A DNA stretch of 64,000 nucleotides from Hydrogenophaga sp. (lineage in GTDB: Bacteria > Pseudomonadota > Gammaproteobacteria > Burkholderiales > Burkholderiaceae_C). The position numbers and the translations under genes are program-made. The stretch is from positions 62,001 through 126,000 of the forward strand of contig JACVCO010000002.1 in assembly GCA_016741995.1 (NCBI GenBank). Reading direction: 5' to 3'. Under the pieces are notes generated by a model. It did not search any database and had not been told where the DNA came from. It saw only the letters and a program-made list of their open reading frames with translations. Each line of letters begins with the position of its first letter. Within the stretch, counting starts at the first letter, position 1. Below, piece by piece: positions 1,687 to 38,170 of the stretch.

Positions 1687-1974
1687 TCACAGTCCTTCGG
1701 ACTTGTCGATGTCGTCAGGCGCCTCATACGTCTTCTTGGCTTTTCGCCAGCCAAGGGGATCTCGATCGAATGGCGGCGGTACACCTATGGAGGCCGCCGA
1801 GTTGCACATGCTTGCAAAGCCCAGAAGTGCGAGCGCCAAAACTAGGCTGACGATTCCCATCCAGCGGTTGTTGGCCCAGAAGAACGTGTATATGACAAGC
1901 GCAGCGGCGAGCATTACGCAGGCAAGTGTGCCCAGCCCCGTCAGGCGACCTTTGTTGAGCAGCCAATGTTTCAT
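1687..1974 (-). CDS. cdiI: CDI immunity protein, membrane type (by position)
   Basis: A 95-residue protein starting MKHWLLNKGRLTGLGTLACV. It has two predicted membrane helices, about residues 12-32 and 39-56, followed by a polar, charged tail rich in proline and lysine. The ATG at 1974 overlaps the cdiA stop as ATGA (1971-1974), so translation is probably coupled to the toxin. That coupling and its position directly behind cdiA make it the likely cognate immunity protein. Membrane immunity proteins usually protect against toxins that act on the inner membrane; applying this here is inference. No sequence family is recognised. Confidence 0.65.
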   Translation of the reverse strand: MKHWLLNKGRLTGLGTLACVMLAAALVIYTFFWANNRWMGIVSLVLALALLGFASMCNSAASIGVPPPFDRDPLGWRKAKKTYEAPDDIDKSEGL

Positions 1975-7900: not shown

Positions 7901-8630
7901 CCACGTTCAGCCGCGTGGCCCACAGGCCGGCGTTGAGCTGCACGGAACGCGCAAGCACGGCGGCGTGGTCGGCATCGCGCGCGTCCAGCCCGGCGCCGTC
8001 GATGCTGATCTGCCCGCGCTGCACCAGGTAGGTGTCGAGCGCGCCGCCGTTGAACACCGGTGTGCCCGTGGTCAGCGTGACGCCGCTGGCGTTGATGAAG
8101 CCCGCGCCGTTGACGCGGATGCCGGCGGGGTTGGCGATCACCACCTCGGCGCGCTGGCCGGCCACCTCCACCCAGCCGTTGAGGTGGCTCGGGTTCGTGC
8201 TGTTGACCTCGTTGAGGATCACGCGCGCGGCGCCGCCGGCCAGCCAGGGGTTGCCCGGCACCCAGCCGCCGAGCCGGGTGGGGGCATCGGTTCGGCTGTT
8301 GTTGAGGATGGCGCCCTGCCCATCCACATCGAAGCGCTGGTAGGTGTTGCGGCTCACGCCGGCGGCGCTCGGGGTCTGGATGTTGACCAGGGGCACGCCA
8401 TTGGGCGCGGCCAGCACCGTGGGGCGCTGCGGGCCCGGGGCGCCGGGGTCGGCCACGATCTGCGCCGTGGCCACGCCCGGTGAGCAGAGCAAGGCCATGG
8501 CAGCAGCCACCACGCCGGTTCGTGCGCCCTGGCCGCTGGCGCTTTTGTGCACGCTGCGCGCGCCTTCGCCCACGGCCATCAGGGCGCCACGCGCGCGGTT
8601 GAAGACGAGGCGGTGTTGTTGTCGATTCAT
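1971..8630 (-). CDS. cdiA: CdiA/FhaB-type two-partner secretion effector
   Basis: A 2219-residue filamentous-haemagglutinin-like protein. The N-terminus is an extended signal peptide (MNRQQHRLVFNRARGALMAV, hydrophobic core about 38-55, probable cleavage after ATA near 56). The TPS domain follows, about residues 57-300, with an NPNGI-like motif ANPAGIRVNG near 166. A long beta-helix of haemagglutinin repeats (LQAGRDV, IQAGQDV and similar) runs to roughly residue 1700. Near 1940 the motif ADVNNRQLHPTE marks the VENN-like pre-toxin border. The last about 270 residues are the variable toxin region, with a Cys pair (RCANGDLAC) and an Ala/Val/Gly-rich hydrophobic stretch around residues 2110-2150. 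It follows cdiB by 16 bp and overlaps cdiI. Exported through CdiB, it would act on neighbouring cells by contact. Confidence 0.9.
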   Translation of the reverse strand: MNRQQHRLVFNRARGALMAVGEGARSVHKSASGQGARTGVVAAAMALLCSPGVATAQIVADPGAPGPQRPTVLAAPNGVPLVNIQTPSAAGVSRNTYQRFDVDGQGAILNNSRTDAPTRLGGWVPGNPWLAGGAARVILNEVNSTNPSHLNGWVEVAGQRAEVVIANPAGIRVNGAGFINASGVTLTTGTPVFNGGALDTYLVQRGQISIDGAGLDARDADHAAVLARSVQLNAGLWATRLNVVTGASTVDAARHTPAGPATPNGATPAFALDVAQLGGMYAGHIHLVGTEAGLGVNSRGVIAAESGRLTLDTRGQLVNQGALLAAGDMTLQAAQLVNDAGAPTPTTAPAVIAAGGALTVRADTLDNRNGALIHSEGDMVIAGAIDSAGPARAVNNLSATIEAQDNLVLSTQSLRNERSNINVTQVGVLDQTARLDMPSWWVNGRNEHGAPITATSNYTPYHYYLLNPASILSEQTLITPDGNRIQRIEVALDPSDSIHHAAAGAYGGQYGVRSRLNVGAPTTAVLYVQQRVDGVANPDQVSGSRDVFAAQTAEVHTWQQNTLDYSNAYGRCSTNCTLLVVQPGYGNPLSDLLRSDQTHLVPTHAGLELSRTARHTAQEDRLNPDAGASAALRAGGAMRLDIGESLVNRHADILAGTTLDVIAPEASVTNQGRTLYRRHHFAITSRTAALGDFDWTRPGINEVLGQLGGRISAGQQLNLQARSFSNIDPGPGSGPGAEPLGSGLQFAGVSFPGAGAPLVMANHSLFRPAPPQRSYLVETDPRFTQHRAWLGSDYLLDRLADGHDLTLKRLGDGWHEQKLVREQVAELTGLRLLEGFSSDEAQLRALMDAGIAQAQTLQLRAGVALSAAQVAQLSTDLVWLVQREVLLPDGSTTQALVPQVYLRSVPRDELLPSGALLAGRQVSLQVAQDLVNAGGRIEGDVVLAQAGRDLVNVGGLMQARSELLAQAGRDVTISSPTHTTTFASRHVTQSHTALAGVGAMRVTGTGSTDDDAGGGGRLTIQAGQDVVLQGARVSNAGAGGSTTMQAGRDVQLQTMSVGSENSVVADARNHRHNSERREIGSDIAVQGKLDIRAGQDVMARAASVQAQGTLSVQASESIHLQAGRAISESASSQYQKRSGPVSSKRTEVHESAASDVTIGSRFGGADVKLQAGHDIVVQGSEVSAQHTLRLGAGRDVLIVSEENHASASYAQATKKSGLSVTKQGVDHGKSAQSSQENTRHTTQAASGISGANVHIDSGRDTTVLASTVVADEHLSIDATGDVNIVAGTHHEAREQQSHSHSSGVNVMASGLTESVNLAKSLRNNGQGTGVSATAAASTVGSLGGDVSITSGQRYQQTGSDVLAVAGDVDIAARSVTITEARELRGTADQRSGKSTVFGATPRNALVDAIKGAKNTLDTAEATARTGDSRLQAIGAAATALQAANTAGQMAALVADPTKIASVTIDFNLGSNKHRSDSTETRDTGRASAVTGAGDVRIAASGLGKDSDLLVRGSDVRAGGDALIQAEGDVRLESAQERAALRERSNSSGASIGVGISFGASTGITLNASANQARGNADGADVVQRNARIEAGNNPGNVARIESGADTTLAGAVVSGHAVQAEVGGDLRIESRQDTSTFKSDQQSSGFSMSLCIPPICYGASSVSASSAKQNIHSEHASVVEQSGLRAGDGGFQVKVQNNTTLAGGAIISTDQAVQDGSNRFTTGGELALSDVYNRAHHEAEGYAVNMTVAVKGAEATTPEQQAKRAAVPATNAGSAGIGEDSGQARSTTLAAISGIAGDQDARTGDAPSGIAPTFNRATVQQEIDAQIRITAEFGKSASKAIGDHAGKRFNELKDSDPEEAAKWAEGGAYRMAAHSLVGGLAGGAAGAAGAGLSSLSADAINQLTGDMPDGVRQLVGAGVAAGIGAIAGSNAGAATAFNADVNNRQLHPTERQLARELARKSGGKYTAEQIEEQMRLMGNRVHHAQPNTTEVLTDTNAIVDHLDKDPGMPKISDGRTVVEIPGQTNADIQRFIIGNTTDNADYIPGVSPYMSSQVNGQSAQSGPTTATATARCANGDLACISGVGVQQSSLPELGDAARNAIADGAASTSRAAGVVAAGATAAVATSSPHIKPIASAIAVGATVAGVAADAVEQAVRPSVGQALQDAMLTSFQEWADRKIPGVAPVTNEVIEAWRASGTSKSVETWANEKWKAFLERTSK

Positions 8631-8646
8631 GGTTTCTTTGCGGTGT

Positions 8647-10383
8647 TCAGAAGCCCGCGCTCAGCTGGAAGCCGGCGCTGGCGTTGTCGGTTCGAAAGCC
8701 TTCGGGTTTGTGCAGGGGCGTGCCGATGAAGACGTCGTAGGACAGCGCGCCCCAGCCCTCCCAACCTCCACGGAGCCCCAGCACGGCACCGGCCAGGCGC
8801 CGGCCTGCGAGCCACTGCGCGCCGGGGCCGCCCACGCGGCCCTGGTCCAGGCCGGCGTAGAGCTGCTGCCCGCTCTGCCCCAGCGAAACGCTCAGTTCGT
8901 TGCGCCACCACCAGCCGCGCTCGCCGACCAGGCTGCGCTCGCCATCGAAGCCGCGCACGCTGTGGCGCCCGCCGATGGCGAAGCGGTCTTGCGGGGTGAG
9001 GGGCGTGCGCTCGCGCTGGCCGCGCCAGTGGCTGCGCCACTGCATCGGCAAGCCCCCCACCTGCATGGCTTGCGACCACGCTGCATCCAGCGTCACCAGG
9101 GCAAAGCGCGAGCGGCCCTCGCCAGTGGCTTCTTCGGCCGCGGGCAGGGCACCGAACGCGCCGGTGCCGCGCTTGAAGGCCGCGCGCAGATCGAGCCGGT
9201 GGCGCCCGACCTGGTGGCGGTGTTCTGCGCCCAGTTCCCAGCCGCCGGTGCGCCGGCGCTGCACCTCGACCTCGGTGTCGTCGATGAAATTGCTCGACTG
9301 GCGCGCGAAGACCTTGAACGCCACCGAGGTCTTGCTGGCGCCGTCGCGGTGCACCCCGCGCGACAGCGTGGCGTCCTGTTGCGTGCCGTGGCCGCTGTAG
9401 CGGTAGTCCTGCGCCAGGCCGGCCACGGTCTGGAAGTAGTGGTGGCGGCTGGCGTTGAAGCCCAGTTGCCAATGCCCCAGGGGCAGCGAATGGTGCAGGC
9501 TGGCGTGGCGGCTGCCGCGCGCGCCGGGCTCACCCCCACCCAGGTCGCGGCCCAGCGTGAGCTGCAGCACGTCGTTGAGCGCCAGGGGGTTGTCGACGCC
9601 GATCGTGGCGCTGCCCTGGTAGCGCCCGGTGGCGTGCGAGCCACCGTCGTCGAGCGACAGATCCAGCCGCAGTGGCAGCACTTGGCGCCAACGGATATGC
9701 AGCTCGCTTTGGCCGGGTGCATCGCCAGGGGTGATCTGGATGTCGGACTGCACCGTGGGCACGCGCCGCAGGTTTTCCAGCGCCTGCTCGATGTCGCGCA
9801 GATTGAGGATGTCGCCTGGGCGCGCCGGCAGGGTGTTCTGCCAGGTCCCCCGTGCCGGTGTGCCGTCGGCGAAGCGGATGGCGCTGATGCGCCCGGGCAG
9901 CAGCGTCAGCACAAGCGTGCCGCCCGACAGATCCTGCGATTCGATGAGCACCCGCGAGGTGACGAAACCCCGCGCCATGAGATGCTGCTGTGCCCGCGCA
10001 GCGGCCACCGAAACGCCCTCGGGGCCGAGGCAGCGGCCGATGGCGGCATCGGGTCCCTGCGTCAGGGTGTTCAGCACCCAGCCAAACGACCCTGCGTCGT
10101 CACCTTGCAACAGCACGCGCTGGATGGCGAAGCACGGCGCTTCTGCCGCGGGCCAGGCGCGCAGGGCGGGCGTGGTGGCGGTATCGCCGAACACATTCGC
10201 ACCACGCTGCAGCGTTTCGCGCTGGCTGCGCTCACGCTCTTCGGCGCGGCGCTGTTCAAGGCGGTCTCGCTCGGCGGCGTCCGCCTGCACCTGCGCTGGT
10301 GATTGTGCAAACGCCGGGCTCGGCGATGCCAGGCACGCTGCCGCCAACGCGAGCGCGCGCCGAAAGACACGATCGATATCCAT
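8647..10383 (-). CDS. cdiB: CdiB/ShlB-type outer-membrane transporter
   Basis: A 578-residue TpsB protein with a signal peptide (cleavage near AFA-Q at 26). A Glu/Arg-rich linker follows, then POTRA domains (about 70-230: FAIQRVLLQGDD, then ARGFVTSRVLIESQDLSGGT) and a C-terminal 16-strand-type barrel. The barrel carries the family motifs LDDGGSHATGRYQG and IGGRHSVRGFDGE (VRGY-type) and ends in Phe (LSAGF). It secretes CdiA across the outer membrane. It is the first gene of cdiB-cdiA-cdiI, the E. coli-like gene order. A perfect inverted repeat sits just upstream of its start codon. Confidence 0.92.
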   Translation of the reverse strand: MDIDRVFRRALALAAACLASPSPAFAQSPAQVQADAAERDRLEQRRAEERERSQRETLQRGANVFGDTATTPALRAWPAAEAPCFAIQRVLLQGDDAGSFGWVLNTLTQGPDAAIGRCLGPEGVSVAAARAQQHLMARGFVTSRVLIESQDLSGGTLVLTLLPGRISAIRFADGTPARGTWQNTLPARPGDILNLRDIEQALENLRRVPTVQSDIQITPGDAPGQSELHIRWRQVLPLRLDLSLDDGGSHATGRYQGSATIGVDNPLALNDVLQLTLGRDLGGGEPGARGSRHASLHHSLPLGHWQLGFNASRHHYFQTVAGLAQDYRYSGHGTQQDATLSRGVHRDGASKTSVAFKVFARQSSNFIDDTEVEVQRRRTGGWELGAEHRHQVGRHRLDLRAAFKRGTGAFGALPAAEEATGEGRSRFALVTLDAAWSQAMQVGGLPMQWRSHWRGQRERTPLTPQDRFAIGGRHSVRGFDGERSLVGERGWWWRNELSVSLGQSGQQLYAGLDQGRVGGPGAQWLAGRRLAGAVLGLRGGWEGWGALSYDVFIGTPLHKPEGFRTDNASAGFQLSAGF

Positions 10384-16778: not shown

Positions 16779-17855
16779 TCAGGCGGGCGTGGCGCTGTCC
16801 ACCGTCGGCAGGTGCGCGAGGATGTCGCGCCACGCGCCGAGTTCCGGCTTGCCCGGTTTGCGCGCGCCGAAGAACATGGCCATGAGCTCGCCCCGCGTGT
16901 CGAAGGCTTCGAGCGAGGTGACCACGCCGTCGCTGGTGGGCTTCTCCACCACCCAGGCTTCGTCGATCAGGTCTTCGCGCAGGTGCAGGTTGAAGCCCGG
17001 GTCGAGCACGTTGAGCCAGGTCTTGCCATTCATCTCCATCGGCTCGATGCGCTTGACCGGGCCGGTGTGGATCTGGATGCAGCCCGGGCTGCCCACGAAC
17101 ACCATGATCGGCGTGCCTTCGAAGGCCGCTTCCATCAGCGTTTCGCGCAGGGCGTTGCGGTCCACGCGGCGTGTGTAACGGCCTTCGACCAGGCGAAAGC
17201 TCTGGCGGCGTTCCACACCGAACTGGCGCAACAGCGGGAAGAACTGGTGCGTGTCGGTCATCGCGCCCCAGGCCTGGCCGAACGCGTTGACGTCGATGTT
17301 GGCCGCAGCGGGCTTGGCGCTCGCGGCCGCTGCGGGTTCGAAGCCCACGGTGGCGGCCGGGTCCGACCACCGCGCGATCACCTGGCGCCAGGCTTCGCGG
17401 TCGCTGGTCTCGCGCACGAAGATCTTGTGCACGGCGGTGCCGTGCTTGTCGAAGAACTGCAGGCTGGGCACGGCTTCGGTGCCGGGGTTCTGCGGCCGTT
17501 CGGTGACGGCCAGGCCCGCGTGCCACTGGTTGAAGAACAGGCGCAGGTCGATGTCTTCGCCCAGCGCGAGGCCGACCGGGCCTTCGCCCGAGAGTTTTTC
17601 GTACACGCCGGTCTTCTCGTGCACCGTGCTCTCGTTGCGCGTGAGCGCGAGCAGCGGGCCGCAGGGCTTGAGTGACTGCAGCAGCGCGAGCCAGTCGCGT
17701 TTGAGCGCGACGGCCTGCGTGGGTGCATCGCTCGCGCCGATGTACGCGGCCAGGGCGGCGCCCTCGCTCGCGCCGATCGCTTCGGCGGCGTCGCGCGCGC
17801 GCAGGCCTTTGGCGCGGGCGGCTTCGTAGGCGGTGCGGATCTCGTGGGTGTTCAT
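16779..17855 (-). CDS. hmuS: haemin-degrading / haem-transfer factor
   Basis: A 358-residue protein of the HemS/HmuS/ChuS family with two tandem copies of the fold, about residues 35-170 and 205-345. The two copies share patterns such as HKIFVRETSD and IQIHTGPVKRIEPM. It acts in the cytoplasm, where it stores, transfers or breaks down imported haem. I chose the ATG at 17855 because it lies 20 bp after hmuR and gives the expected length. It is third in the order hemP-hmuR-hmuS-hmuT-hmuU-hmuV. Confidence 0.92.
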   Translation of the reverse strand: MNTHEIRTAYEAARAKGLRARDAAEAIGASEGAALAAYIGASDAPTQAVALKRDWLALLQSLKPCGPLLALTRNESTVHEKTGVYEKLSGEGPVGLALGEDIDLRLFFNQWHAGLAVTERPQNPGTEAVPSLQFFDKHGTAVHKIFVRETSDREAWRQVIARWSDPAATVGFEPAAAASAKPAAANIDVNAFGQAWGAMTDTHQFFPLLRQFGVERRQSFRLVEGRYTRRVDRNALRETLMEAAFEGTPIMVFVGSPGCIQIHTGPVKRIEPMEMNGKTWLNVLDPGFNLHLREDLIDEAWVVEKPTSDGVVTSLEAFDTRGELMAMFFGARKPGKPELGAWRDILAHLPTVDSATPA

Positions 17856-17875
17856 GTGTTTTCCTTCGGCGGGGG

Positions 17876-20116
17876 TCAGAAGTCGGTGACCAGGGCGAGC
17901 GACAGGCTGCGGCCCGGTGAGGTGAAGTTGTCCAGCGTGGCCGAGTTGCCGGCGACGCCCTGCACGTTGGCCCACGCCCAGTACTTGCGGTCGGTCACGT
18001 TGTGCACGGCCGCGCTCAGGCGCGTGCTGGGCGTGACGCGCCAGCTCGCGCGCAGGTCCAGCGTGGTCCAGGCGGGGGTGCTGTACTGCAGCGGCGTGTT
18101 CGCGAAGTTGATGTCGTCGCCCTTCTTGGCGGCGGTGTGCGTGACGGTGGCGCCCAGCGTCCAGTCGGCGATGCGGTGCTCGGCACCCATCACCAGCTTG
18201 GCCGGGTTGACCGAGTTCAGCGGCCGGTTCGCGACCGTGTCCTTGCCTTGCGTGCGGCCGTAGCCCAGGCGCAGCGTGGTGGCCGGCGTCACGGCCCAGC
18301 GGCCTTCGAGCTCGAAGCCGCTGAGCGTCACGCGGCCGCGGTTGACCGCCATGTACTGCAGCGGGCTGCCCGCCGCGCCGGTGCCGCTGATGACAACGTT
18401 GTCCTCGATGAAATCCTTGTAGCGGCCGGTGAACGCCGTGGCCAGCCAGTTGAGCCGCCCGTGTTCGCCGCGCGCACCGAGTTCGAGCGTGCGGCTGCTC
18501 TCGGGCTTGAGGTTGGGGTTGGGGTTGGTGCTGTAGAAGAACGGGCCGGTGACGTTCTGATAGAAGTTGTTGAGCTGCAGCGGGCTGGGCGCCTTGAAGC
18601 CGGCCGCGAGGTTGGCAAAGACCTGCCAGCTCGGCTCGGGGCGGAAGATCAGGCCCAGCTTGGGCGAGAGCGCGCTGTCGGACAGGCTGACCGGATTCAG
18701 CGGGTACAGCGGGCCGGCTTTGGCGTCGAGGTTGAAGCGGTCGTAGCGCAGCGCGGGCACGATGCTCCAGCGGTCGCTCACGAACTCGCTCTGCACGAAC
18801 AGCGCGGCCGTGGTTTCGCGCGTGGTCGGGAAGCGTTGCAGCGGGTAGACCTCGCCACCGGGCGGCGTGACGCCGGTGACCAGGTTGTCGAGATCGGCGA
18901 CCGAGACATCCACCCCGTAGATCAGCGTGTTGGCCCAACCGTTGCCCAGCGGGCGCGTGCGCTCGGCCTGCAGCACGGCTTGCCACAGATCTTCCTGGTA
19001 GGTCAGGTCGCGCACGCGCTGGTTGGGCACGGCGGTGCGCAACTCGCGCGTGACCTCGCGCGATTCGGATTGCTGATAGCCGACCGTAGCGCGCAGCGAG
19101 TCGGCCCAGGCGGCGTCCATCGCAAAGCGGCCGTCCCAGCTCAGGCGCGTGCGCTGCATGTCGGTGTCGCCGTCCAGGTCCAGCGTGCCGGCGGCGGTGG
19201 CCGTGCGTGCGCTCAGGGCCTCGACCTCGCTGGACTTGTCCACGTGCTCGAGCGTGAGCGTGTGCGTCTGCCCGCCACCGGGCGTGAGCACGAGCTTGCC
19301 CAGTGCCGAGACGCTCTTGTCCTTCTGCGGGTTGGGCGCGGTGCGGTTGACGTTGGGTGCGTGGTTCTCGCCCATGTTGTCGAGCTCTTTCGCGCGGCCC
19401 ACCTGCACGCTGCCCAGCCACTGCAGGCGTTCATTGACGACGCCCGCGAGCGTGACGCCGACGCCGAGGCTGCTGTCCTCGCTGTCGGCGCGGACGCCGG
19501 CGCGCCCACCGAAGGTCTTGCCGTCCTTGAGCAGTTCCCTGGGCGTGGTGGTGTACATGGCCACCATGCCGGCCAGGCCGTCGGAGCCATACAGCGCGGA
19601 GGCCGAGCCGCGCAGGATCTCCACGCGCGAGATCAGGCCGAGGTCGTAGTAGTCGCGCCCGAAAGAGGCCGAGCCCAGCACGTCGTTGCTGAGCGCGCGC
19701 GGCATGCGGATGCCGTCGACCGTGAGCAGCACGCGGTTGCCGTCGAGGCCGCGGATGTTGAAGCCGGCGTTGCCGTCGCGGCCGGTGGAGCCTTGCACGG
19801 CACCGAAGCGTTGCGGCGCGCGCTTGACGTCCACGTTGGGCAGTTCGCGCACGAGTTCGCGGATGTCCTGCGCGCGCGTCGGGTCCAGCGCTTCGCCTTC
19901 GATCACGTCCACCCGCGCGGGCACGTCCTCCAGTTCGCGCTCGCTGCGCGAGCCGGAGATCACCACGGGCTTGAGCGTGCCGCTCGCTTGCGCGATGGTC
20001 TGGCCATCGGCCGGGGCGGGGAGGGTCTGGGCCCAACTGGTGCTGGCGAGCAGCGCGCAGGCCAGCGCCACGGGGCGCAGGGGAGAAGGACGGAAGGCAG
20101 GGTGGGGGGCTGTCAC
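17876..20116 (-). CDS. hmuR: TonB-dependent haem/haemoglobin receptor
   Basis: An outer-membrane receptor of about 746 residues with signal peptide (ALACALLASTSWA-Q). The plug domain carries DRDGNAGFNIRGLDGNRVLL-type motifs, and a 22-strand-type barrel ends in Phe (LALVTDF). The haem-receptor boxes are visible: a FRAP-like GFKAPSPLQLNNFYQN and an NPNL box (STNPNPNLKPESS) near residue 530. No ATG lies at the right place. I prefer the GTG at 20116, with AGGTGA just upstream, over the GTG at 20143. It moves haem into the periplasm using TonB energy, and is preceded by hemP and a putative Fur site. Confidence 0.92.
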   Translation of the reverse strand: MTAPHPAFRPSPLRPVALACALLASTSWAQTLPAPADGQTIAQASGTLKPVVISGSRSERELEDVPARVDVIEGEALDPTRAQDIRELVRELPNVDVKRAPQRFGAVQGSTGRDGNAGFNIRGLDGNRVLLTVDGIRMPRALSNDVLGSASFGRDYYDLGLISRVEILRGSASALYGSDGLAGMVAMYTTTPRELLKDGKTFGGRAGVRADSEDSSLGVGVTLAGVVNERLQWLGSVQVGRAKELDNMGENHAPNVNRTAPNPQKDKSVSALGKLVLTPGGGQTHTLTLEHVDKSSEVEALSARTATAAGTLDLDGDTDMQRTRLSWDGRFAMDAAWADSLRATVGYQQSESREVTRELRTAVPNQRVRDLTYQEDLWQAVLQAERTRPLGNGWANTLIYGVDVSVADLDNLVTGVTPPGGEVYPLQRFPTTRETTAALFVQSEFVSDRWSIVPALRYDRFNLDAKAGPLYPLNPVSLSDSALSPKLGLIFRPEPSWQVFANLAAGFKAPSPLQLNNFYQNVTGPFFYSTNPNPNLKPESSRTLELGARGEHGRLNWLATAFTGRYKDFIEDNVVISGTGAAGSPLQYMAVNRGRVTLSGFELEGRWAVTPATTLRLGYGRTQGKDTVANRPLNSVNPAKLVMGAEHRIADWTLGATVTHTAAKKGDDINFANTPLQYSTPAWTTLDLRASWRVTPSTRLSAAVHNVTDRKYWAWANVQGVAGNSATLDNFTSPGRSLSLALVTDF

Positions 20117-30877: not shown

Positions 30878-31654
30878 TCAGCGCGGCGCGATCTCGCTGT
30901 CGTGCCAGCCCGCGAGTGCCCAGCGGTTCACCGCCGCCAGCAACAGGAACAGCACCACGCCCGTGACCGAGATCAGCACCAGCGCCGCGAACATGCGCGG
31001 GATGTTGAGCTGGTAGCCCGACTGCAGGATCTGGTAGGCCAGGCCCGTGCCCGTGCCGCCGGTGCCGGCCACGAACTCGGCCACCACCGCGCCGATGAGC
31101 GCGAGCCCGGCCGAGATGCGCAGGCCACCGAAGAAATACGGCAGCGCGCTCGGGATGCGCAGGCGCCACAGCAGCGCCCAGCGCGAGGCGCGGTGCAGCT
31201 GGAAGAAGGCCGCCAGCCCGGGGTTCACGCTGCGCAGGCCCAGCGTGGTGTTGGAGATGACCGGGAACAGCGCGACGATGGTGGCGCAGATCACGAGCGA
31301 GAGCGTTGCGTCCTTGACCCAGATGATGATCAGCGGGGCGATGGCCACGATGGGCGTGACCTGCAGCAGCACCGCGTAGGGAAAGAAGGCGGTCTCGATC
31401 CAGCGGCTCTGCACGAACACGAAAGCGATCAGCGTGCCCAGCACCGCGGACGCGACGAAGGCCAGCAGCGTGATCCACAGCGTGACGCCGAGCGCGCCGA
31501 CCAGCAGGTCCCAATCCTTCACCAGGGTCTGCGCGATCAGCAGCGGCGAGGGCACCAGGAACGCGGGCACCTGCGCCACCGTGACCCAGGCCTGCCAGAT
31601 GGCCAGCAGCAGCAGCGCCACGATCAGCGGGGCGAGAAAGCGCGCGCCCTTCAT
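30878..31654 (-). CDS. ABC transporter permease, SsuC/TauC type
   Basis: A 258-residue permease with six membrane helices. The BPD-transporter motif region is LRIPSALPYFFGGLRISAGL followed by ALIGAVVAEF (about 175-205). This is the type that pairs with NMT1/THI5-like binding proteins. Its ATG overlaps the ATPase stop as ATGA. It is the last gene of the eight-gene operon running from 38053 down to 30878. It forms the inner-membrane channel of the importer; the substrate is unknown. Confidence 0.9.
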   Translation of the reverse strand: MKGARFLAPLIVALLLLAIWQAWVTVAQVPAFLVPSPLLIAQTLVKDWDLLVGALGVTLWITLLAFVASAVLGTLIAFVFVQSRWIETAFFPYAVLLQVTPIVAIAPLIIIWVKDATLSLVICATIVALFPVISNTTLGLRSVNPGLAAFFQLHRASRWALLWRLRIPSALPYFFGGLRISAGLALIGAVVAEFVAGTGGTGTGLAYQILQSGYQLNIPRMFAALVLISVTGVVLFLLLAAVNRWALAGWHDSEIAPR

Positions 31655-32439
31655 GTGAAGCTCGCTTCGCCGCTGGCGCGCAGCAGGCTGTCCTGCAGGC
31701 GGCGCGCGTGTTCCGCGAAGCGCTGGCTCACGCGGAAGTCGGGGCCGCGCGGGTAGGGCTCGTCGATCGCCACCTCCTCGACCACCCGGCCCGGGCGCGC
31801 CGCCATCACCACCACGCGCTGCGAGAGGTACACCGCCTCGGCGATGGAGTGCGTCACGAACACCACGGTGAGCTTCTGCTGCGCCCACAGCCGCAGCAGG
31901 TCGTCGTCGAGCCGGTTGCGCGTGATCTCGTCGAGCGCACCGAAGGGCTCGTCCATCAGCAGCAGGTTCGGTTGGGTGACCAGGCCGCGCGCGATCGACA
32001 CGCGCATCTGCATGCCGCCCGAGAGTTCGCGCGGGCGGTGCGTGGCAAATGCATCGAGCCCCACCAGCGCGAGCGATTCGCGCACGCGCGCGTCGCTGTC
32101 GGCGCGGGGCCGGCTCGCCAGGTCCAGCGGCAGGCGCACGTTGGTCTGCACGCTGGCCCATGGCATGAGCGTGGCCTCCTGGAACACGAAGGACAGCCGC
32201 TTGCCGCTGCTGTCGAAATCGCGCACCGGGCGGCGCCAGAGCAGGATGCGCCCCTCGGTGGGTTCGAGCATGCCCGCCACCATCTTGAGCAGCGTGCTCT
32301 TGCCACAGCCCGAGGGGCCGAGCAGCGTGACGAACCCCCCCTGCGCCACCTGCAGATCCATCGGCAGCAGCGCGCGCGTGCCGTTGGGGTAGGTCTGTTC
32401 GGCGGAGAGAACCTCGATCGCAGGCGTGTCGTCGCTCAT
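31651..32439 (-). CDS. ABC transporter ATPase, nitrate/sulfonate type
   Basis: A 262-residue ATPase with Walker A GPSGCGKST (about 41-49), Q-loop FVFQEATLMPWASV, signature LSGGMQMRVSIARGL, Walker B LLLMDEPFGALDEITR and switch VFVTHSIAEAVYLSQRVVVM. The QEATLMPW and DEPFGALDE forms are typical of the SsuB/TauB/ThiZ group. It begins 13 bp after the binding-protein gene and overlaps the permease gene. Confidence 0.92.
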   Translation of the reverse strand: MSDDTPAIEVLSAEQTYPNGTRALLPMDLQVAQGGFVTLLGPSGCGKSTLLKMVAGMLEPTEGRILLWRRPVRDFDSSGKRLSFVFQEATLMPWASVQTNVRLPLDLASRPRADSDARVRESLALVGLDAFATHRPRELSGGMQMRVSIARGLVTQPNLLLMDEPFGALDEITRNRLDDDLLRLWAQQKLTVVFVTHSIAEAVYLSQRVVVMAARPGRVVEEVAIDEPYPRGPDFRVSQRFAEHARRLQDSLLRASGEASFT

Positions 32440-32452
32440 CGGGTGCGGGGCG

Positions 32453-33433
32453 TCAGGGCAGGATCTTCAGGTCCTTGACGAACTGGTCGGTGAAAGTGGC
32501 CTTGTAGTCGACCTTCGCGTCGATCAGCTTGTTGGCGACCAGCATGTCGTAGGTGGCCTTCATGCGCGCGTCGGTGACCACGCCCACCCCCAGCTTCGCC
32601 GCGTCGCCGCCGAACACCATGCCGGTGGATTTGAGCAGCGCGATGCCGTTGGCGATCTTGTCGTCGGTCATGTTCGGGTTGTCCTTCTTGATCAGCGCGT
32701 TGGCCGCCGAGGGATCGCCCGTGAGGTATTTCTTCCAGCCTTCCATGGAGGCCTTGACGAACTTCGCCACCGCCTGCGGGCGCTCCTTCACCGTTTTCTC
32801 CATGCACACGATGGTGGTGGAGTACGGCGGCCAGCCGTGGTCGGAGAGCAGGAACACGCTGGGCTTGAAGCCGGCTTCCTTCTCGATCGCGAACGGCTCG
32901 GACGACAGGTAGCCCTGCTGCACCATGTTCTTGTCGGCGATGAAGGGCTGGACGTTGAAGGTGTAGGGCTTCATCTGCCCGTCGCTCAGGCCGTACTTGC
33001 CGCGCAGCCAGGGCCAGTAGGTGGTGGTGCCCGCGCTGGAGACGAGGATGGTCTTGCTCTTGATGTCCTCGAGCTTCTTCACGTCCGGGTGCGCGATCAG
33101 CACCTGCGGGTCTTTCTGGAACGAGGCCGCCACCGTGACGGCGTTGATGCCCTGCGCGCGCACGCTCATGGTCTGCACGTCGTAGCCCATCACGCACTCG
33201 GCCTGGCCCGCGGCCATGATCTGCATGATGTTGACCTGCGGGCCGCCCATGCGGATGGTCACGTCCAGGCCCGCGGCCTTGTAGCTGCCGTCGGCCAGCG
33301 CCTGGTAGAAGCCGCCGTGCTCGGCCTGGGCGTACCAGTTGGTGACGTAGGTGAACTTCTCTTGCGCCAGCGCGCCGCCGGCCAGGGCCAGCGCGAGGCC
33401 GGCGAGGGAACCGCGAACGAGGAACGGGCTCAT
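32453..33433 (-). CDS. NMT1/THI5-like ABC substrate-binding protein
   Basis: A 326-residue periplasmic protein with a signal peptide (cleavage after GGALA at 23). The mature start, FTYVTNWYAQAEHGGFYQAL, is characteristic of the NMT1/THI5-like group, which includes importers of thiamine pyrimidine precursors and other small nitrogen compounds. The ligand is not readable from sequence. It lies between the RidA gene (76 bp upstream) and the ATPase gene; the 76-bp gap is the largest in the operon and might hold a secondary ribosome-binding or processing element. Confidence 0.88.
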   Translation of the reverse strand: MSPFLVRGSLAGLALALAGGALAQEKFTYVTNWYAQAEHGGFYQALADGSYKAAGLDVTIRMGGPQVNIMQIMAAGQAECVMGYDVQTMSVRAQGINAVTVAASFQKDPQVLIAHPDVKKLEDIKSKTILVSSAGTTTYWPWLRGKYGLSDGQMKPYTFNVQPFIADKNMVQQGYLSSEPFAIEKEAGFKPSVFLLSDHGWPPYSTTIVCMEKTVKERPQAVAKFVKASMEGWKKYLTGDPSAANALIKKDNPNMTDDKIANGIALLKSTGMVFGGDAAKLGVGVVTDARMKATYDMLVANKLIDAKVDYKATFTDQFVKDLKILP

Positions 33434-33509
33434 GGGGATCTCCTTCGGGTGGGGGTCATCGGTGCGGTTCGTTGTGCAAGCTCCATGCCAGTCGCCGCTG
33501 CCGCGGTGC

Positions 33510-33974
33510 TCAGCGGCCGGGCGGCAGCCAGACGGTGGCCTCCACCTCCAGCCGCACGGCCGGCCCCGGCATCATGCCGCTGACCTCGACCACCGTGCTC
33601 ACCACCGGCTCGGGGAAAAACAGGTTGCGCACGCGGTTGTAGGCGGGGTAGTCGCGCAGGTCGGTGAAGTACTGAACCAGCCGGCACACGTTGGCCATCT
33701 CGCCGCCGTGCTCGGCCACCAGCGCGCGGATGCGCGCCAGCACCAGCCAGCTCTGCACCACGGCGGGGCCTTCGAACACGTCCACCGACAGCTGCCCGGT
33801 GTCGTAGCCGATGCCGCGCAGCGCCTCGCGCGCGGCGGGGTCGAGCGCGTCGTAGCGCTGCGGCACCTCGCCGCTGGCCGGGTCGACCGCGATCACGCCG
33901 CTGAGGTAGAGGTGGTCGCCGACGCGGCGGGCGGCGGCGTAGCGCGCCAGGGGTTGTCCGGTGGGGGTGCTCAT
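33510..33974 (-). CDS. RidA (YjgF/YER057c/UK114) family protein
   Basis: A 154-residue protein with the family features YLSGVIAVDP near the N-terminus, CRLVQYFTDLRDYPAYNRVR in the middle, and VRLEVEATVWLP, with the functionally important Arg, at the C-terminus. RidA proteins deaminate reactive enamine/imine intermediates; RutC and related members act in nitrogen-heterocycle breakdown. In this operon it probably clears an unstable intermediate made by the amidohydrolase or oxidase. Its ATG overlaps the stop of the upstream reductase gene. Confidence 0.88.
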   Translation of the reverse strand: MSTPTGQPLARYAAARRVGDHLYLSGVIAVDPASGEVPQRYDALDPAAREALRGIGYDTGQLSVDVFEGPAVVQSWLVLARIRALVAEHGGEMANVCRLVQYFTDLRDYPAYNRVRNLFFPEPVVSTVVEVSGMMPGPAVRLEVEATVWLPPGR

Positions 33975-34573
33975 GACGGTCCGTCTTGTTGCAGGGTTTG
34001 CCGCACCCGCCGCATGAAGCGTTCGCAGTCGAGCGCGGTGACGTTGTTCATGTCGTGCAGTTGCAGCCAGGTCTTGCGGCAGCGCGGGTGGAACAGGATG
34101 CCCATGCCGCGCATCATCACGCGGCGGTGCGGGTCGCCGATGAGCTTGAGCCACCACCAGGGCGAACCGCCGTGGGTGATGACGGTGAAGCGGCGCACGT
34201 GCTGCATGTTGGGCTTGAGGCGCTGGCCCTTGCGCTGCGCGGGCTCGAAGGTCACCTTGGGCAGCCACACGCGCTCCAGCCAGCCCTTGAGCATGGCCGG
34301 TGGCCCCCACCACCAGGTGGGGTAGACCAGCACCAGGTGCTCGGCGCGTTGCAACAGCGCGATGTGCGCGGCGAAGCGCTGCAGCAACCAGTCGGGCCCG
34401 CTGAGGTAGGCAGCTTTTTCCTCGGCCTTGAGCACCGGGTCGAAGCCTTCGGCGTAGAGGTCGATCGCGTCCACCGCGTGGCCCTGGGCGCGCAGCGTTT
34501 CCTGTGTCAGCCGGAACAGCCCGGCGCTGAAGCTGCCGGCGTCGGGGTGGGCGTGGACGATGAGCGTCTGCAT
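33971..34573 (-). CDS. NAD(P)H-quinone oxidoreductase-like flavoprotein
   Basis: A 200-residue flavodoxin-fold protein of the KefF/MdaB/NQO group. FMN/FAD-binding segments are IVHAHPDAGSFSAGLF (about 5-20) and LVYPTWWWGPPAMLKGWLER (about 83-102), with VRRFTVITHGGSP later. It would use NAD(P)H to reduce a quinone, flavin or nitro substrate; in this operon it may support the upstream FAD oxidase. It starts 8 bp after the oxidase gene. Confidence 0.85.
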   Translation of the reverse strand: MQTLIVHAHPDAGSFSAGLFRLTQETLRAQGHAVDAIDLYAEGFDPVLKAEEKAAYLSGPDWLLQRFAAHIALLQRAEHLVLVYPTWWWGPPAMLKGWLERVWLPKVTFEPAQRKGQRLKPNMQHVRRFTVITHGGSPWWWLKLIGDPHRRVMMRGMGILFHPRCRKTWLQLHDMNNVTALDCERFMRRVRQTLQQDGPS

Positions 34574-34581
34574 GGCCGGAT

Positions 34582-36024
34582 TCAGGGGCGCGCGTACTCG
34601 GGCAGCCAGCCTTCGGCCTTGCCCGGGTTCATCAGGCCGTGCGGGTCGGCCAGTTTCTTGAAGTCGATCTGCGCCGTGTCGATGCTTTTCATGCCGCCGC
34701 CTTCGATGGTGACCACGTGGTTGTCGAACACCAGGCAGCCCTCGGCCTCGTGCTCGCGGATGATCTCGTAGATCCGTTCCTTGTCGAAGTAGGCCACCAG
34801 TGGCAGCGCGAACACCACGAAGCCGTGGCTGTCGCGGCCGAACTCGTGGTGCATCAGCACCTCGTCGCCATAGCGCTGCATCTGGCGCTCCACCAGGTCC
34901 AGGTCGAGCGGCCACGAATACACGGTCTGCAGGTTGGTCCAGCTCTTGTCCTGGCGCAGCGCCATCAGCGTGGTGTGGTTCCAGGCGCATTCGAAGGCGG
35001 GCACCAGGCCGTGGCGCGTGAGCTCGTCTTCGTTCATGGCCATGGTCTCGGTGCCACCGTGTTCGCGCACGAGGGCGCGCCAGGCGTCCAGGTCGCGCGG
35101 GTGCACCATGGCGAACACGGCGTCGCGGTCGGGCGGAAAACGCTCGCCGAAGGCATCGGCGTAGAACGGCGCGAAACGCTGGTCCACCGCGGTGATCTCG
35201 AAGCTGTCGATCGCGGGGCCGGGCGGCACGGGCGGGGCGTCCGAGCCGCGGATGGGGTTGGCGCGCGCGCAGGCCTGGGTGGCGGCCACGCCGAATTCGA
35301 GCGCCTTGCGGTAGCTGGGGAAGAGTGCGATGTGGTGCACCCAGTCCACCGCGGGCTTGAGCGCGAGCGTGAGCTCGGTCATCACGCCGTTGGTGCCGAA
35401 GGCGTGGTGCACCTTCTGGATGTCGGCGTCGTCGAGTTCGATCACGCGCGGCGTTTCCTCCATCGTCACGATGCGCACGCGCGTGACGTTGCCCGGGTCT
35501 TTCAGGATGCCGTTGCGCACGCTGCCCGCACCGCCGTAGCCCCCGCCGATGAAGCCGCCGATGGTGGCGGTGTCGCGCGTGCTCGGGTACATCAGCAGCT
35601 CCTGGCCGCCGGGCACCACGGGGCTGGCGCGCACGGCGCGCTCCAGCTCCATGATGAAACAGCCGGCCTGCACGCGCACCGAACCCTCGGCGATGTGCAG
35701 CACGCGGTTCAGGCCGGTGATGTCCAGGATCACGCCGCCTTCGAGCGGCACGCACTGGCCGTAGTTGCCGGTGCCGCCGCCGCGCACCACCAGCTTCACG
35801 CGGTGGCGCGTGCAGCTCGCGGCCACGCGGATCACCTCGTCCTCGCTCACCGGCCGCACGATGAGCTCGCCGCGGCAGTCCTTCAGCTGCTGCTGCAGGA
35901 TGGGGCTGTACCAGTGGTAGTCCTTGCTCTTGACGTCGAGCAGCGCGGCGTCGGTGCTCATCTCGATGCCGGCGAGGTCGGCGATGACGCGTTCGAGGGG
36001 GGCGAGGTCGGTGGGTTTGTTCAT
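34582..36024 (-). CDS. FAD-binding oxidase, GlcD/VAO type
   Basis: A 480-residue flavoprotein. The PCMH-type FAD-binding domain lies at about 55-230, with VVRGGGTGNYGQCVPLEGGV and ATIGGFIGGGYGGAGSVRNG. The C-terminal FAD-oxidase domain ends with DPHGLMNPGKAEGW, a hallmark of the GlcD group. No membrane segment or signal peptide, so cytoplasmic. It oxidises an unknown alcohol, amine or hydroxyacid made from the imported compound. Its ATG overlaps the amidohydrolase stop. Confidence 0.85.
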   Translation of the reverse strand: MNKPTDLAPLERVIADLAGIEMSTDAALLDVKSKDYHWYSPILQQQLKDCRGELIVRPVSEDEVIRVAASCTRHRVKLVVRGGGTGNYGQCVPLEGGVILDITGLNRVLHIAEGSVRVQAGCFIMELERAVRASPVVPGGQELLMYPSTRDTATIGGFIGGGYGGAGSVRNGILKDPGNVTRVRIVTMEETPRVIELDDADIQKVHHAFGTNGVMTELTLALKPAVDWVHHIALFPSYRKALEFGVAATQACARANPIRGSDAPPVPPGPAIDSFEITAVDQRFAPFYADAFGERFPPDRDAVFAMVHPRDLDAWRALVREHGGTETMAMNEDELTRHGLVPAFECAWNHTTLMALRQDKSWTNLQTVYSWPLDLDLVERQMQRYGDEVLMHHEFGRDSHGFVVFALPLVAYFDKERIYEIIREHEAEGCLVFDNHVVTIEGGGMKSIDTAQIDFKKLADPHGLMNPGKAEGWLPEYARP

Positions 36025-37214
36025 GCGGGTTGTCCCTGGCGCCACACGCGGCGCTGCCGACCCGCGGGCGCCATGGCCTCGCGGCCGTCGCGCGCGGCGA
36101 GCACGATGAAATCGGCCGGGCAGCCCGGCGCGAAGCGGCCGTCCCACGCGAGCTTCATGGCCTGCGCGGGCGCCACGGTCACGGTGTCGAGCCAGTCCTC
36201 GGCGGGGGCCAGGTGCGCGGCCTGCACGCCCAGCGCCCAGGCCTCGAGCGGGTCGTAGCAGCCGTAGGGGAAGAAGGGGTCGGCCACGTTGTCGCTGGCG
36301 ATGCAGGTGCGCACGCCGGCGGCGCGCGCCTCGCGCAAGCGCGTGATGCCGCGCGGCACCGGGGTTTCGGCCCAGCTGCCCTGCAGGTAGAGGTTGGTGG
36401 TGGGCAGCGCGGTGAGCGTGATGCCGGCCTGGGCCAGCAGCGCCAGCGTGTGTTGCGCTTCTCCCGCCGGCTGCACGCTGAGCGAGCAGGCGTGGCCGCA
36501 GGTGATGCGGTTCGTGAAGCCGCGCGCCAGCGCCATCTCGGCGATCGTGCGCAGGCCGGTGGCGTCGGCGTGCAGGCCTTCGTCGACGTGGAAATCGATG
36601 TCCAGGCCATTCGCCTCGGCCAGGTCGAACACCGTGCCCAGGCGGCGCGGCAGGCCCGGGTGGCGGTAGATGAAACAGCCCAGCACGCCGCCACCGGCCT
36701 TGACGGCGCGCGCCACGCCGCGCGCCCATTCGGTGTCGTCGAACTGATCGACCGCGGTGAGCGAGGCCCACTGGATTTCGATGCGGCCGCGCCAGGTTTC
36801 ACGCAGCTGGGCGATCACGTCCACCGCGGGCGGGCGCTCGGGGGTCATCCAGTCGAGGTGGGTGCGCACCGCGCGCACGCCATGGGCCCAGGCCTCCTGC
36901 AGGCCACGCTCCATGCGCGGGCGCAGGCTGGCGGGTGTCCAGCCCTCGCGGTGCTTCGCGATCATGTCGATGGCACGGAACAGGTCGCCGTCGGCGGCGC
37001 CGGTCTCGTGCACGGTGTGGGTCTTGTCCAGGTGCAGGTGCACATCCACCAGCGGCGAGAGCAGCAGGCCTTGCGCGGGCGTGCCGGGCGGGCAGGGTTC
37101 GATGCGCGCGATGCGAGCGCCTTCCCAGTGCAGGTCGAACACGGCGTCGCTGGCCAGGTCGTCGTGCACGCCCCGCAGCGCGCGCGGAATGCGCAGGGCC
37201 GCCAGCGTGTTCAT
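36021..37214 (-). CDS. cytosine-deaminase-like amidohydrolase
   Basis: A 397-residue metal-dependent amidohydrolase with VDVHLHLDKTHT (HxH plus the DKT typical of cytosine deaminase/AtzC relatives), FHVDEGLHADATGL, ITCGHACSLS, and SDNVADPFFPYGCYDPLEAW near the end. In cytosine deaminase the last motif begins HDD; here it is SDN, keeping the Asp. It probably hydrolyses a cyclic amide or amidine, or removes an exocyclic amino group, in the cytoplasm. Its ATG overlaps the creatininase-family stop. Confidence 0.85.
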   Translation of the reverse strand: MNTLAALRIPRALRGVHDDLASDAVFDLHWEGARIARIEPCPPGTPAQGLLLSPLVDVHLHLDKTHTVHETGAADGDLFRAIDMIAKHREGWTPASLRPRMERGLQEAWAHGVRAVRTHLDWMTPERPPAVDVIAQLRETWRGRIEIQWASLTAVDQFDDTEWARGVARAVKAGGGVLGCFIYRHPGLPRRLGTVFDLAEANGLDIDFHVDEGLHADATGLRTIAEMALARGFTNRITCGHACSLSVQPAGEAQHTLALLAQAGITLTALPTTNLYLQGSWAETPVPRGITRLREARAAGVRTCIASDNVADPFFPYGCYDPLEAWALGVQAAHLAPAEDWLDTVTVAPAQAMKLAWDGRFAPGCPADFIVLAARDGREAMAPAGRQRRVWRQGQPA

Positions 37215-38053
37215 GCCTTGGGTGTCCAGGCGGTGTCGGCGGTGATGGTCTGCGGGCCGAGGCGGTCCACCTCGTGCAGCAGCGCGGCGAGCTGGCGGCC
37301 CGCGTCGTCGATCACCGCGCGGCCCTTGGCCTCGGTGGCGAGGGTTGCGTCACCCGCGGCGCCCCAGGCGTTCAGGTCCTGCACCTGCCAGGCCACCTTG
37401 CCGGCGCCGTTGCCCAGCAAGGGGAAATCGCGTGCGCGCTGTTCCATCGCGCTGTCGAAAGCGCGCGCCTCGCCCATGCGCACGGTGTGCGGCGCCAGCG
37501 CCAGCATCATCGAGGTCTCCACGTCGCCCGCGTGGATGCCGAAGCGGTGTTCCTCCGCCGTGAACAGCGCGTGCACCTCGCTCGCCATCGGCAGGCTGAA
37601 CCAGTTGGTGGACACCACCACGATGTCGTGCGCCACGCGCAGGTCGCGCGCCACGGTCTCCATCAGCGCCACTTGGCCGCCGTGGCTGTTGAGCAGCACC
37701 AGCTTGCCGAAACCGGCGCGCGCCACGCAGGCGCCCAACTCCATCCACAGCGCGCGCAGCGTGTCGGCCGACAGCGTGAGCGTGCCGGCGTAGCGCGCGT
37801 GTTCGTTGCTCTTGCCCACCGCCTGCGTGGGCAGGAAGAGGGCGGTCATGTCGTCGCGCAGGTGCGGCAGGCAGGCGTCGATCACGCCGTCCACCAGCGT
37901 GGTGTCCACGCTCACCGGCAGGTGCGGGCCGTGCTGTTCGATGGCGGCGATGGGCAGCACGGCGATGGCGCGCGCGGCCTGGCCAGCGGCCTGCAGGTCG
38001 GCGAAGTCGCGCGCCGTCCAGTCGGACCAGCGGCGCGAGGGGTTCTGGGGCAT
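37211..38053 (-). CDS. creatininase-family amidohydrolase
   Basis: A 280-residue protein with the family metal sites: AIEQHGPHLPVSVDTTLVDG (Glu, His and Asp, about 38-57), LLNSHGGQ (about 120) and IHAGDVETSMML (about 175-186). Family members open small cyclic amides or deformylate pyrimidine-type substrates (creatininase, ArfB), and include MftE. It is the first gene of the eight-gene operon. GGAGACAGAC precedes the ATG. The actual substrate is unknown; creatinine itself is not implied, since no creatinase gene is present. Confidence 0.85.
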   Translation of the reverse strand: MPQNPSRRWSDWTARDFADLQAAGQAARAIAVLPIAAIEQHGPHLPVSVDTTLVDGVIDACLPHLRDDMTALFLPTQAVGKSNEHARYAGTLTLSADTLRALWMELGACVARAGFGKLVLLNSHGGQVALMETVARDLRVAHDIVVVSTNWFSLPMASEVHALFTAEEHRFGIHAGDVETSMMLALAPHTVRMGEARAFDSAMEQRARDFPLLGNGAGKVAWQVQDLNAWGAAGDATLATEAKGRAVIDDAGRQLAALLHEVDRLGPQTITADTAWTPKA

Positions 38054-38106: not shown

Positions 38107-38119
38107 ACGCAAATTGCGT
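38107..38119. promoter_or_regulatory. candidate operator upstream of the creatininase operon
   Basis: The plus-strand sequence ACGCAAATTGCGT is a perfect inverted repeat with six-base arms around one central base, 54 bp upstream of the operon's first start codon. It lies in the 117-bp gap (38054-38170) behind the metal-ATPase stop. A GC hairpin sits nearer the start codon (GGCCCG arms, about 38073-38086). No clear -35/-10 pair was found. A repeat of this size is expected by chance several times per window, so this is only a candidate. Confidence 0.35.
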
Positions 38120-38170
38120 GCCATTTCATCGTGTCCCGGGGGATCGCGCCGCGGTGTCCCGCAGACGACC

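Follow-up and report, generated by a model that had tools for sequence, protein, structure and literature searches.

A candidate sigma-54-controlled operon for pterin import and ring breakdown in a Hydrogenophaga genome

A 64,000-nucleotide stretch of Hydrogenophaga sp. DNA (assembly GCA_016741995.1, contig JACVCO010000002.1, positions 62,001 to 126,000; here called the window) carries eight packed genes on its minus strand, spanning 38053–30878, that encode a set of enzymes and a dedicated transporter. We consider it very probable that these genes form an operon, controlled by sigma-54 and nitrogen supply, for the import of pterins (2-amino-4-oxopteridines) and the breakdown of their ring as a nitrogen source. 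The gene set, its co-conservation, the family-level identity of the deaminase and the promoter motifs are shown here; what the operon acts on in this host, all reactions that follow deamination and the order of the steps are inferred. An earlier note on this DNA had proposed an operon for an unknown nitrogen compound; because its deaminase matches a characterized pterin deaminase by primer and clade, that compound is most likely a pterin.

In the direction of transcription, a creatininase-family amidohydrolase gene (CRN, 37211–38053; PF02633) is followed by the amidohydrolase gene AMH (36021–37214; PF07969/PF01979), whose product is predicted from its clade and a primer match to be a pterin deaminase of the PDA/Arad3529 group. 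Next come the genes for an FAD_binding_4 (GlcD/VAO-type) oxidoreductase (FAD, 34582–36024; PF01565), a flavodoxin-fold NAD(P)H oxidoreductase that we propose as an electron donor (NQO, 33971–34573; PF02525) and a Rid-family protein without the canonical arginine (RID, 33510–33974; PF01042). The transporter consists of an NMT1/THI5-type substrate-binding protein (NMT, 32453–33433; PF09084), an ATPase (ABC, 31651–32439; PF00005) and a permease (PER, 30878–31654; PF00528). All eight packed genes of the earlier note were found, both by direct reading of the sequence and by codon-usage calling, and the 4-base-pair ATGA overlaps that it listed, three in the enzyme genes (CRN/AMH, AMH/FAD and NQO/RID) and one in the transporter (ABC/PER), were all read directly. 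Its family names agree with Pfam for all eight at superfamily level (the scan took the longer open frame for PER, RID, NQO and FAD), but the curated cut-offs for creatininase and cytosine deaminase were missed. The host genome comprises 3.57 Mb in 29 contigs and is 82% complete.

Our substrate assignment starts from AMH. The characterized relative is the 399-residue pterin deaminase of Variovorax sp. F1, a strain isolated on folate; in the available part of its description (You et al. 2022, PMC9513972), the enzyme is assayed on folate and pteroate and turns over folate with a Km of 0.28 mM and a kcat of 10.1 per s. The same text puts the identity of the Agrobacterium radiobacter enzyme Arad3529 (from Fan et al. 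2013, which PMC9513972 cites) at 36–37% and states that the cloning used a primer in the ‘endoribonuclease’ gene, which is conserved and follows the predicted gene. This fits the gene order in Variovorax, where RID directly follows AMH in 12 of 12 loci. Moreover, the published 5′ primer for the F1 gene sits on the AMH start codon in 7 of the 12 named Variovorax loci, with 2–3 mismatches in 21 positions, and has one stray match elsewhere, in locus L049. In a quick tree of 109 rows, the AMH of the window falls into a 24-row clade (SH-aLRT 100) with all 12 Variovorax rows, one of which is 58% identical to it, and 16 CodA-like control rows stand apart from AMH on one side of a branch with a support of 100. 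The tree holds neither the F1 nor the Arad3529 sequence, the tie to F1 being the primer match; seven Rhizobium-type copies, 34–39% identical to a Variovorax copy, are in line with the published value for Arad3529. The nearest named relative among the matches listed, from Hydrogenophaga sp. bin_70 (L062), is 71% identical. Six residues to which we assign the metal-binding and acid/base roles of the cytosine-deaminase fold (H59, H61, H209, E212, H241 and D308) are invariant in 20 sequences, and AMH scores below the cut-off for cytosine deaminase itself (NF005759, PRK07583; 339.8 versus 403 bits). By clade and primer match, AMH is thus assigned as a pterin deaminase at the family level, which bears out the earlier expectation of a deaminase acting on a pyrimidine-like ring.

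The strongest argument for a pterin substrate is that two deaminases from different amidohydrolase subfamilies, both assigned as pterin-type enzymes, occupy one slot. In the Klebsiella locus L147, a divergently oriented neighbour amidohydrolase matches PDB 2paj (E = 2.3e-201), which we take to be the isoxanthopterin deaminase structure of Hall et al. 2010, and reaches the isoxanthopterin-deaminase group NF009059 with 822.1 bits against a cut-off of 543; the corresponding neighbour in L062 also exceeds this cut-off (579.6 bits). Such genes, here called IXPD, occur in or beside the cluster in L147, L038, L062 and G047/G164. The clusters of L167 and L168 contain IXPD, CRN and FAD without AMH, and that of L171, which ends at a contig end, contains IXPD, FAD, NQO and the transporter without AMH or CRN. 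No AMH-clade gene was found in the genomes of these three loci: G109 and G101 have CodA-like matches only, and G115 has none. IXPD relatives at 49% or above are present in 13 of 200 genomes and AMH in 26, and the two coincide in 6 where 1.7 are expected (P = 0.0025). The surroundings of 12 of the 13 IXPD genes were examined: ten include a gene for CRN, FAD, a Rieske protein or an NMT1-type transporter, and each of the other two has an NQO-like gene, accompanied in one by a different transporter and in the other by a weak PaoC match. IXPD-like neighbours of L097, L117 and L125, which are 34–35% identical, were not used as evidence. The activity of isoxanthopterin deaminase was reported by Hall et al. 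2010, as summarized in the available part of PMC5270733.

We then considered whether the set is inherited as a unit. From the named genomes, the best 80 of at least 506 candidate AMH loci were used; together with 30 loci from the same family, minus three duplicates, they gave 107 AMH loci, of which 98 are at least 12 kb long. CRN, FAD and NMT occur together in 67 of these 98 loci and in none of 16 CodA-like control loci, which were chosen down the ranking of CodA-like matches in the family genomes with some genomes skipped. Gene by gene, CRN is present in 77, FAD in 86, NMT in 81, ABC and PER in 79 each, NQO in 55 and RID in 66 of the AMH loci; the controls have no CRN, FAD, NMT, NQO, RID or PER, one ABC and one RutR-like gene. 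The importer and the enzymes therefore travel together in this neighbourhood comparison, contrary to the outcome that the earlier note had named as refuting its reading, and the earlier view of them as one catabolic unit stands. An AMH match of some kind is present in 104 of 200 genomes from the host's family, mostly CodA-like at about 30% identity; 12, including the host, have a match of at least 48%, and in 14 more the best match is 39–43%. In Burkholderiales, Alphaproteobacteria and Enterobacterales most of the genes are again found side by side, and most of the set is annotated jointly on plasmids of Rhizobium, Agrobacterium (L152), Mameliella, Roseateles, Nitratireductor, Pantoea, Comamonadaceae and Klebsiella. 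DsbD, UroD and PriA, found beside CRN in L038 and again in L037, L061 and L076, look like chromosomal background.

Some relatives of the cluster genes stand in other settings. Elsewhere in the host genome (L061, G000:C17:287854-288603) lies another creatininase-family gene, which shares 57% identity with CRN and does not have the rest of the cluster nearby. In L048 (genome G105), two AMH and two CRN genes share one neighbourhood with a RutR-like regulator before each set, possibly a duplication with split substrate range. Cyanobacterial relatives of AMH have neither CRN nor NMT nearby in L118, L128 and L140, and L114 is without CRN.

The sigma-54 (-24/-12) promoter consensus is TGGCAY-N5-TTGC, and sigma-54 control suggests nitrogen limitation. 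We scored this motif before operon starts. Exact matches occur only twice in the window, against 0.50 expected, and both are on the minus strand before the two halves of the cluster: one at 38109–38123, 55 base pairs before CRN (10 of 10 letters), and one at 33476–33490, 42 base pairs before NMT. Two or more exact motifs appeared in 10 of 100 shuffles of the window. The exact motif recurs before NMT, with different spacer letters, in four of nine relatives checked (L062, L031, L064 and L038). Before CRN, seven relatives were checked: L031 has an exact motif at 209 base pairs and L062 has 9 of 10 letters at 225 base pairs, in both cases before a CRN start that was probably called too late, and the other five have 6–8 letters. 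With the window left out, the exact motif precedes 20 of 326 leading core genes, and among other leading genes it precedes 7 of 776 (P = 1.7e-6 for core against other).

The remaining cluster proteins fit their families at a broader level. CRN passes the creatininase superfamily profile (224.8 bits versus a Pfam cut-off of 31.3) and shares the EQHG, D, NSH and ETS stretches with aligned creatininases; for creatininase proper (TIGR04448) it scores 84.7 versus a cut-off of 235 bits. By analogy we tentatively propose that CRN opens a 7-oxo (lactam) ring: it keeps these motifs, and in riboflavin synthesis a formamide of a diaminopyrimidine is the substrate of a creatininase-like enzyme, according to the available part of PMC9478397. 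Residues 10–474 of the 480 in FAD match PDB 6v42 (E = 4.6e-104); our literature search found no paper naming 6v42 or 6v43. The best solved relative of RID is 3lyb (E = 1.1e-41), and RID scores below the RutC cut-off (TIGR03610; 35.6 versus 169.1 bits). NMT passes PF09084 and has weak matches to the pyrimidine-binding protein 3ix1 and to THI5.

Neighbouring genes suggest activities that the cluster may draw on. A Rieske oxygenase gene adjoins it in 8 loci, more are found beside IXPD loci, and in L085 the gene lies inside the operon between NMT and CRN; in other loci the neighbour is a PaoABC-like set, a TauD-type enzyme or a 2-oxoglutarate- and Fe(II)-dependent (2OG-Fe(II)) enzyme. In the host, a Rieske gene with 88% identity to the one beside the L062 cluster lies at G000:C23:205197-206213, on a different contig from the cluster. 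There (L158, G000:C23:195500-215000) it stands beside an NMT1-type transporter, UreD, a 2OG-Fe(II) enzyme and two small deaminases of the CDA type, apparently in a related purine or pteridine locus. In 67 complete loci, NQO occurs alone in 41 and a VanB-type reductase or 2Fe-2S ferredoxin alone in 14, with both in 5 and neither in 7 (P = 7e-6, kinship of loci not removed). We take NQO to be one electron donor among several that can replace each other.

The tetronate genes OtnI, OtnC and OtnK lie beside the cluster in 16 loci of four lineages, namely 13 of Variovorax type, in which OtnI adjoins AMH, and those of Frigidibacter (L086), Aminobacter (L090) and Mesorhizobium (L111); L145 has LtnD and DenD only. 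By chemical inference, C6 of the pterin together with a trihydroxypropyl side chain would make a tetronate, and with C7 added a five-carbon 2-oxo acid. For this host we do not claim the tetronate link. In a separate host locus (L159:5769-8050, contig C19), an 8-oxoguanine deaminase (678 bits versus a cut-off of 532) adjoins an OtnI-like gene (47%). Support for urea as a late product is thin: a urea amidolyase lies beside one copy (R. etli; 1 locus in the neighbour comparison), and UreD lies beside the host Rieske locus, which is no copy of the cluster. Genes in L163 and L164 appear UreD-like by eye and were given no family in an NCBIfam scan.

In the pathway that we propose, the NMT–ABC–PER transporter would import pterin, either free or from folate breakdown, and AMH would remove the 2-amino group as ammonia to give a lumazine, as shown for the Variovorax relative. 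An oxygenase, for which the host candidate is the Rieske enzyme on the other contig, would then hydroxylate C7, with NQO or a stand-in feeding it electrons. The resulting 7-oxolumazine is a cyclic amide that CRN might hydrolyse as creatininase does creatinine. The opened product would be an N-linked 2-imino acid that RID may handle, in a step releasing a diaminouracil and a 2-oxo acid carrying the side chain. FAD could oxidize a reduced pterin or a side-chain carbon, and the remaining nitrogen would leave as ammonia or urea. We put forward the sequence of C7 hydroxylation, lactam opening by CRN and side-chain release tentatively, expecting that it may well need revision. With the same reserve we suggest a gene-level route by which bacteria break down the pteridine ring: that either of two deaminases, with oxygenases that can replace one another, leads to 7-oxolumazine, that a creatininase-family enzyme opens its lactam and that a neopterin- or monapterin-type C6 side chain ends as tetronate.

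How far do other substrates or purposes account for these data? The operon might degrade folate, the conjugated vitamin, rather than free pterins, a reading that overlaps the best explanation and differs in the entry compound alone. As far as the available account of F1 goes, the Variovorax relative deaminates folate and pteroate and its organism was isolated on folate, but the adjacent tetronate genes suggest that the side chain is a polyhydroxyalkyl group rather than p-aminobenzoyl-glutamate, and no carboxypeptidase is named in 12 annotated plasmid stretches (other loci were not searched for one); we think this unlikely while leaving it some room. It is improbable that the true substrate is another aminated N-heterocycle (cytosine-, creatinine- or purine-like), with pterin deamination a side activity of the relatives. 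That reading could draw on AMH being a distant cousin of cytosine deaminases, on the weak resemblance of NMT to aminopyrimidine and THI5 proteins as its nearest matches, on relatives of one RutR-like TetR protein in 41 compared loci and on the moderate folate turnover given for the Variovorax enzyme in the available text. It is countered by the second pterin-type deaminase, which fills the same slot from another amidohydrolase subfamily, and by the clean separation of AMH from the CodA-like clade and its score below the cytosine deaminase cut-off.

A cluster that clears or recycles harmful oxidized pterins, rather than feeding on them, has little probability in our view. Protection is a frequent role of NQO-type reductases and of Rid proteins, but a dedicated importer, sigma-54 motifs before both halves, the adjacent tetronate genes and the urea amidolyase in one copy fit feeding better. 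We give hardly any credence to a creatinine pathway made up of a creatininase and a creatinine deaminase with import: the family names are all that speak for it, whereas CRN falls far short of the creatininase cut-off and the 12 annotated plasmid stretches name no creatinase or hydantoinase, which were not searched for elsewhere. The candidates dropped were creatinine catabolism and a true cytosine deaminase, for both of which the curated cut-offs were missed; catabolism of the thiamine pyrimidine (HMP), raised by the THI5-like binding protein and set aside after the pterin deaminase match; cytokinin oxidation, because FAD has no Pfam match beyond FAD_binding_4; and a Rut variant, because the RutC cut-off was missed.

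Several observations nevertheless weigh against a pterin catabolic operon in this form. Deamination was assayed in the Variovorax relative, on folate and pteroate, and pteroate turnover was slow, as far as the available text reports; of three published primer sequences tried, the 5′ one alone matched, and the other two have no match at three or fewer mismatches. The window's own cluster contains no oxygenase. In the host genome (82% complete), no tetronate kinase exceeds its cut-off and the best isoxanthopterin-deaminase match reaches 393.2 bits, below 543, so those two links come from relatives. An arginine in the PAR motif has a role in canonical RidA imine deaminases. RID lacks it at the position where the aligned 2dyy has it, as does 3lyb; a plain imine-deaminase role should thus not be assumed, and the ‘imine clearance’ of the earlier note is doubtful. 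At least one of CRN, FAD and NMT is missing from 31 of the 98 AMH loci, in some at contig ends and in others not, and plasmid copies can be partial: Agrobacterium L150 has no AMH, Ruegeria L149 has no ABC ATPase or permease, and Comamonas L153 has CRN alone. Many of the loci are related, so the P values overstate their independence. The exact sigma-54 motif precedes core genes in 20 of 120 loci, leaving most copies without one, and precedes 0 of 103 leading accessory genes.

Elsewhere in the window, also on the minus strand, a two-partner secretion pair occupies 1971–10290 (a filamentous-haemagglutinin-type exoprotein of 2219 residues and a ShlB/FhaC-type transporter), and haem uptake genes for a HemS/ChuX-type protein and a TonB-dependent receptor lie at 16779–20071.

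No description of the eight-gene operon was found among the papers listed from the openly licensed PMC literature, with subscription papers mostly outside that search. The earlier statement that no described pathway has this composition holds to that extent for the set; its deaminase, on the other hand, matches a characterized enzyme. We rate the cluster as a nitrogen-heterocycle scavenging operon whose first enzyme is known and whose later ones are unassigned. Most organisms make pterins and many excrete them, and early enzymology of bacterial pteridine breakdown exists. As far as our literature search reaches, genes for breaking down the pterin ring beyond deamination are unassigned. If the pterin assignment is correct, the cluster, which is found in Klebsiella and in many bacteria associated with soil and plants, could explain how the nitrogen of pterins and folate returns to the soil pool. 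It would also supply roles for creatininase-family, FAD and Rid proteins whose present annotation goes no further than the fold.

Among known systems, the pterin deaminase of Variovorax F1 and Arad3529 are closest: AMH shares a clade with the Variovorax copies of the F1 gene and is of like length, and in Variovorax a Rid gene lies directly downstream, whereas in the window FAD comes after AMH. The available part of the F1 paper (PMC9513972) describes a single deaminase and carboxypeptidase G, with no importer or ring-opening step. Isoxanthopterin deaminase has relatives in the same kind of cluster, or in place of AMH, but belongs to a different amidohydrolase subfamily. The Rut pyrimidine pathway is alike in its Rid protein and, in relatives of our cluster, in a RutR-like TetR regulator; it differs in its other enzymes and its importer, and the one TetR protein scanned fell below the RutR cut-off. 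The formamidases BrbF and ArfB of riboflavin synthesis offer a parallel for CRN, since the initial annotation of BrbF was creatininase and the enzyme cleaves a formamide borne by a diaminopyrimidine; the likeness is by description, and in the available part of that work (PMC9478397) the reaction is a biosynthetic deformylation with no deaminase or importer described alongside. Finally, the tetronate (threonate/erythronate) pathway LtnD-DenD-OtnK-OtnC-OtnI adjoins the cluster in 13 loci of Variovorax type and 3 from Alphaproteobacteria.

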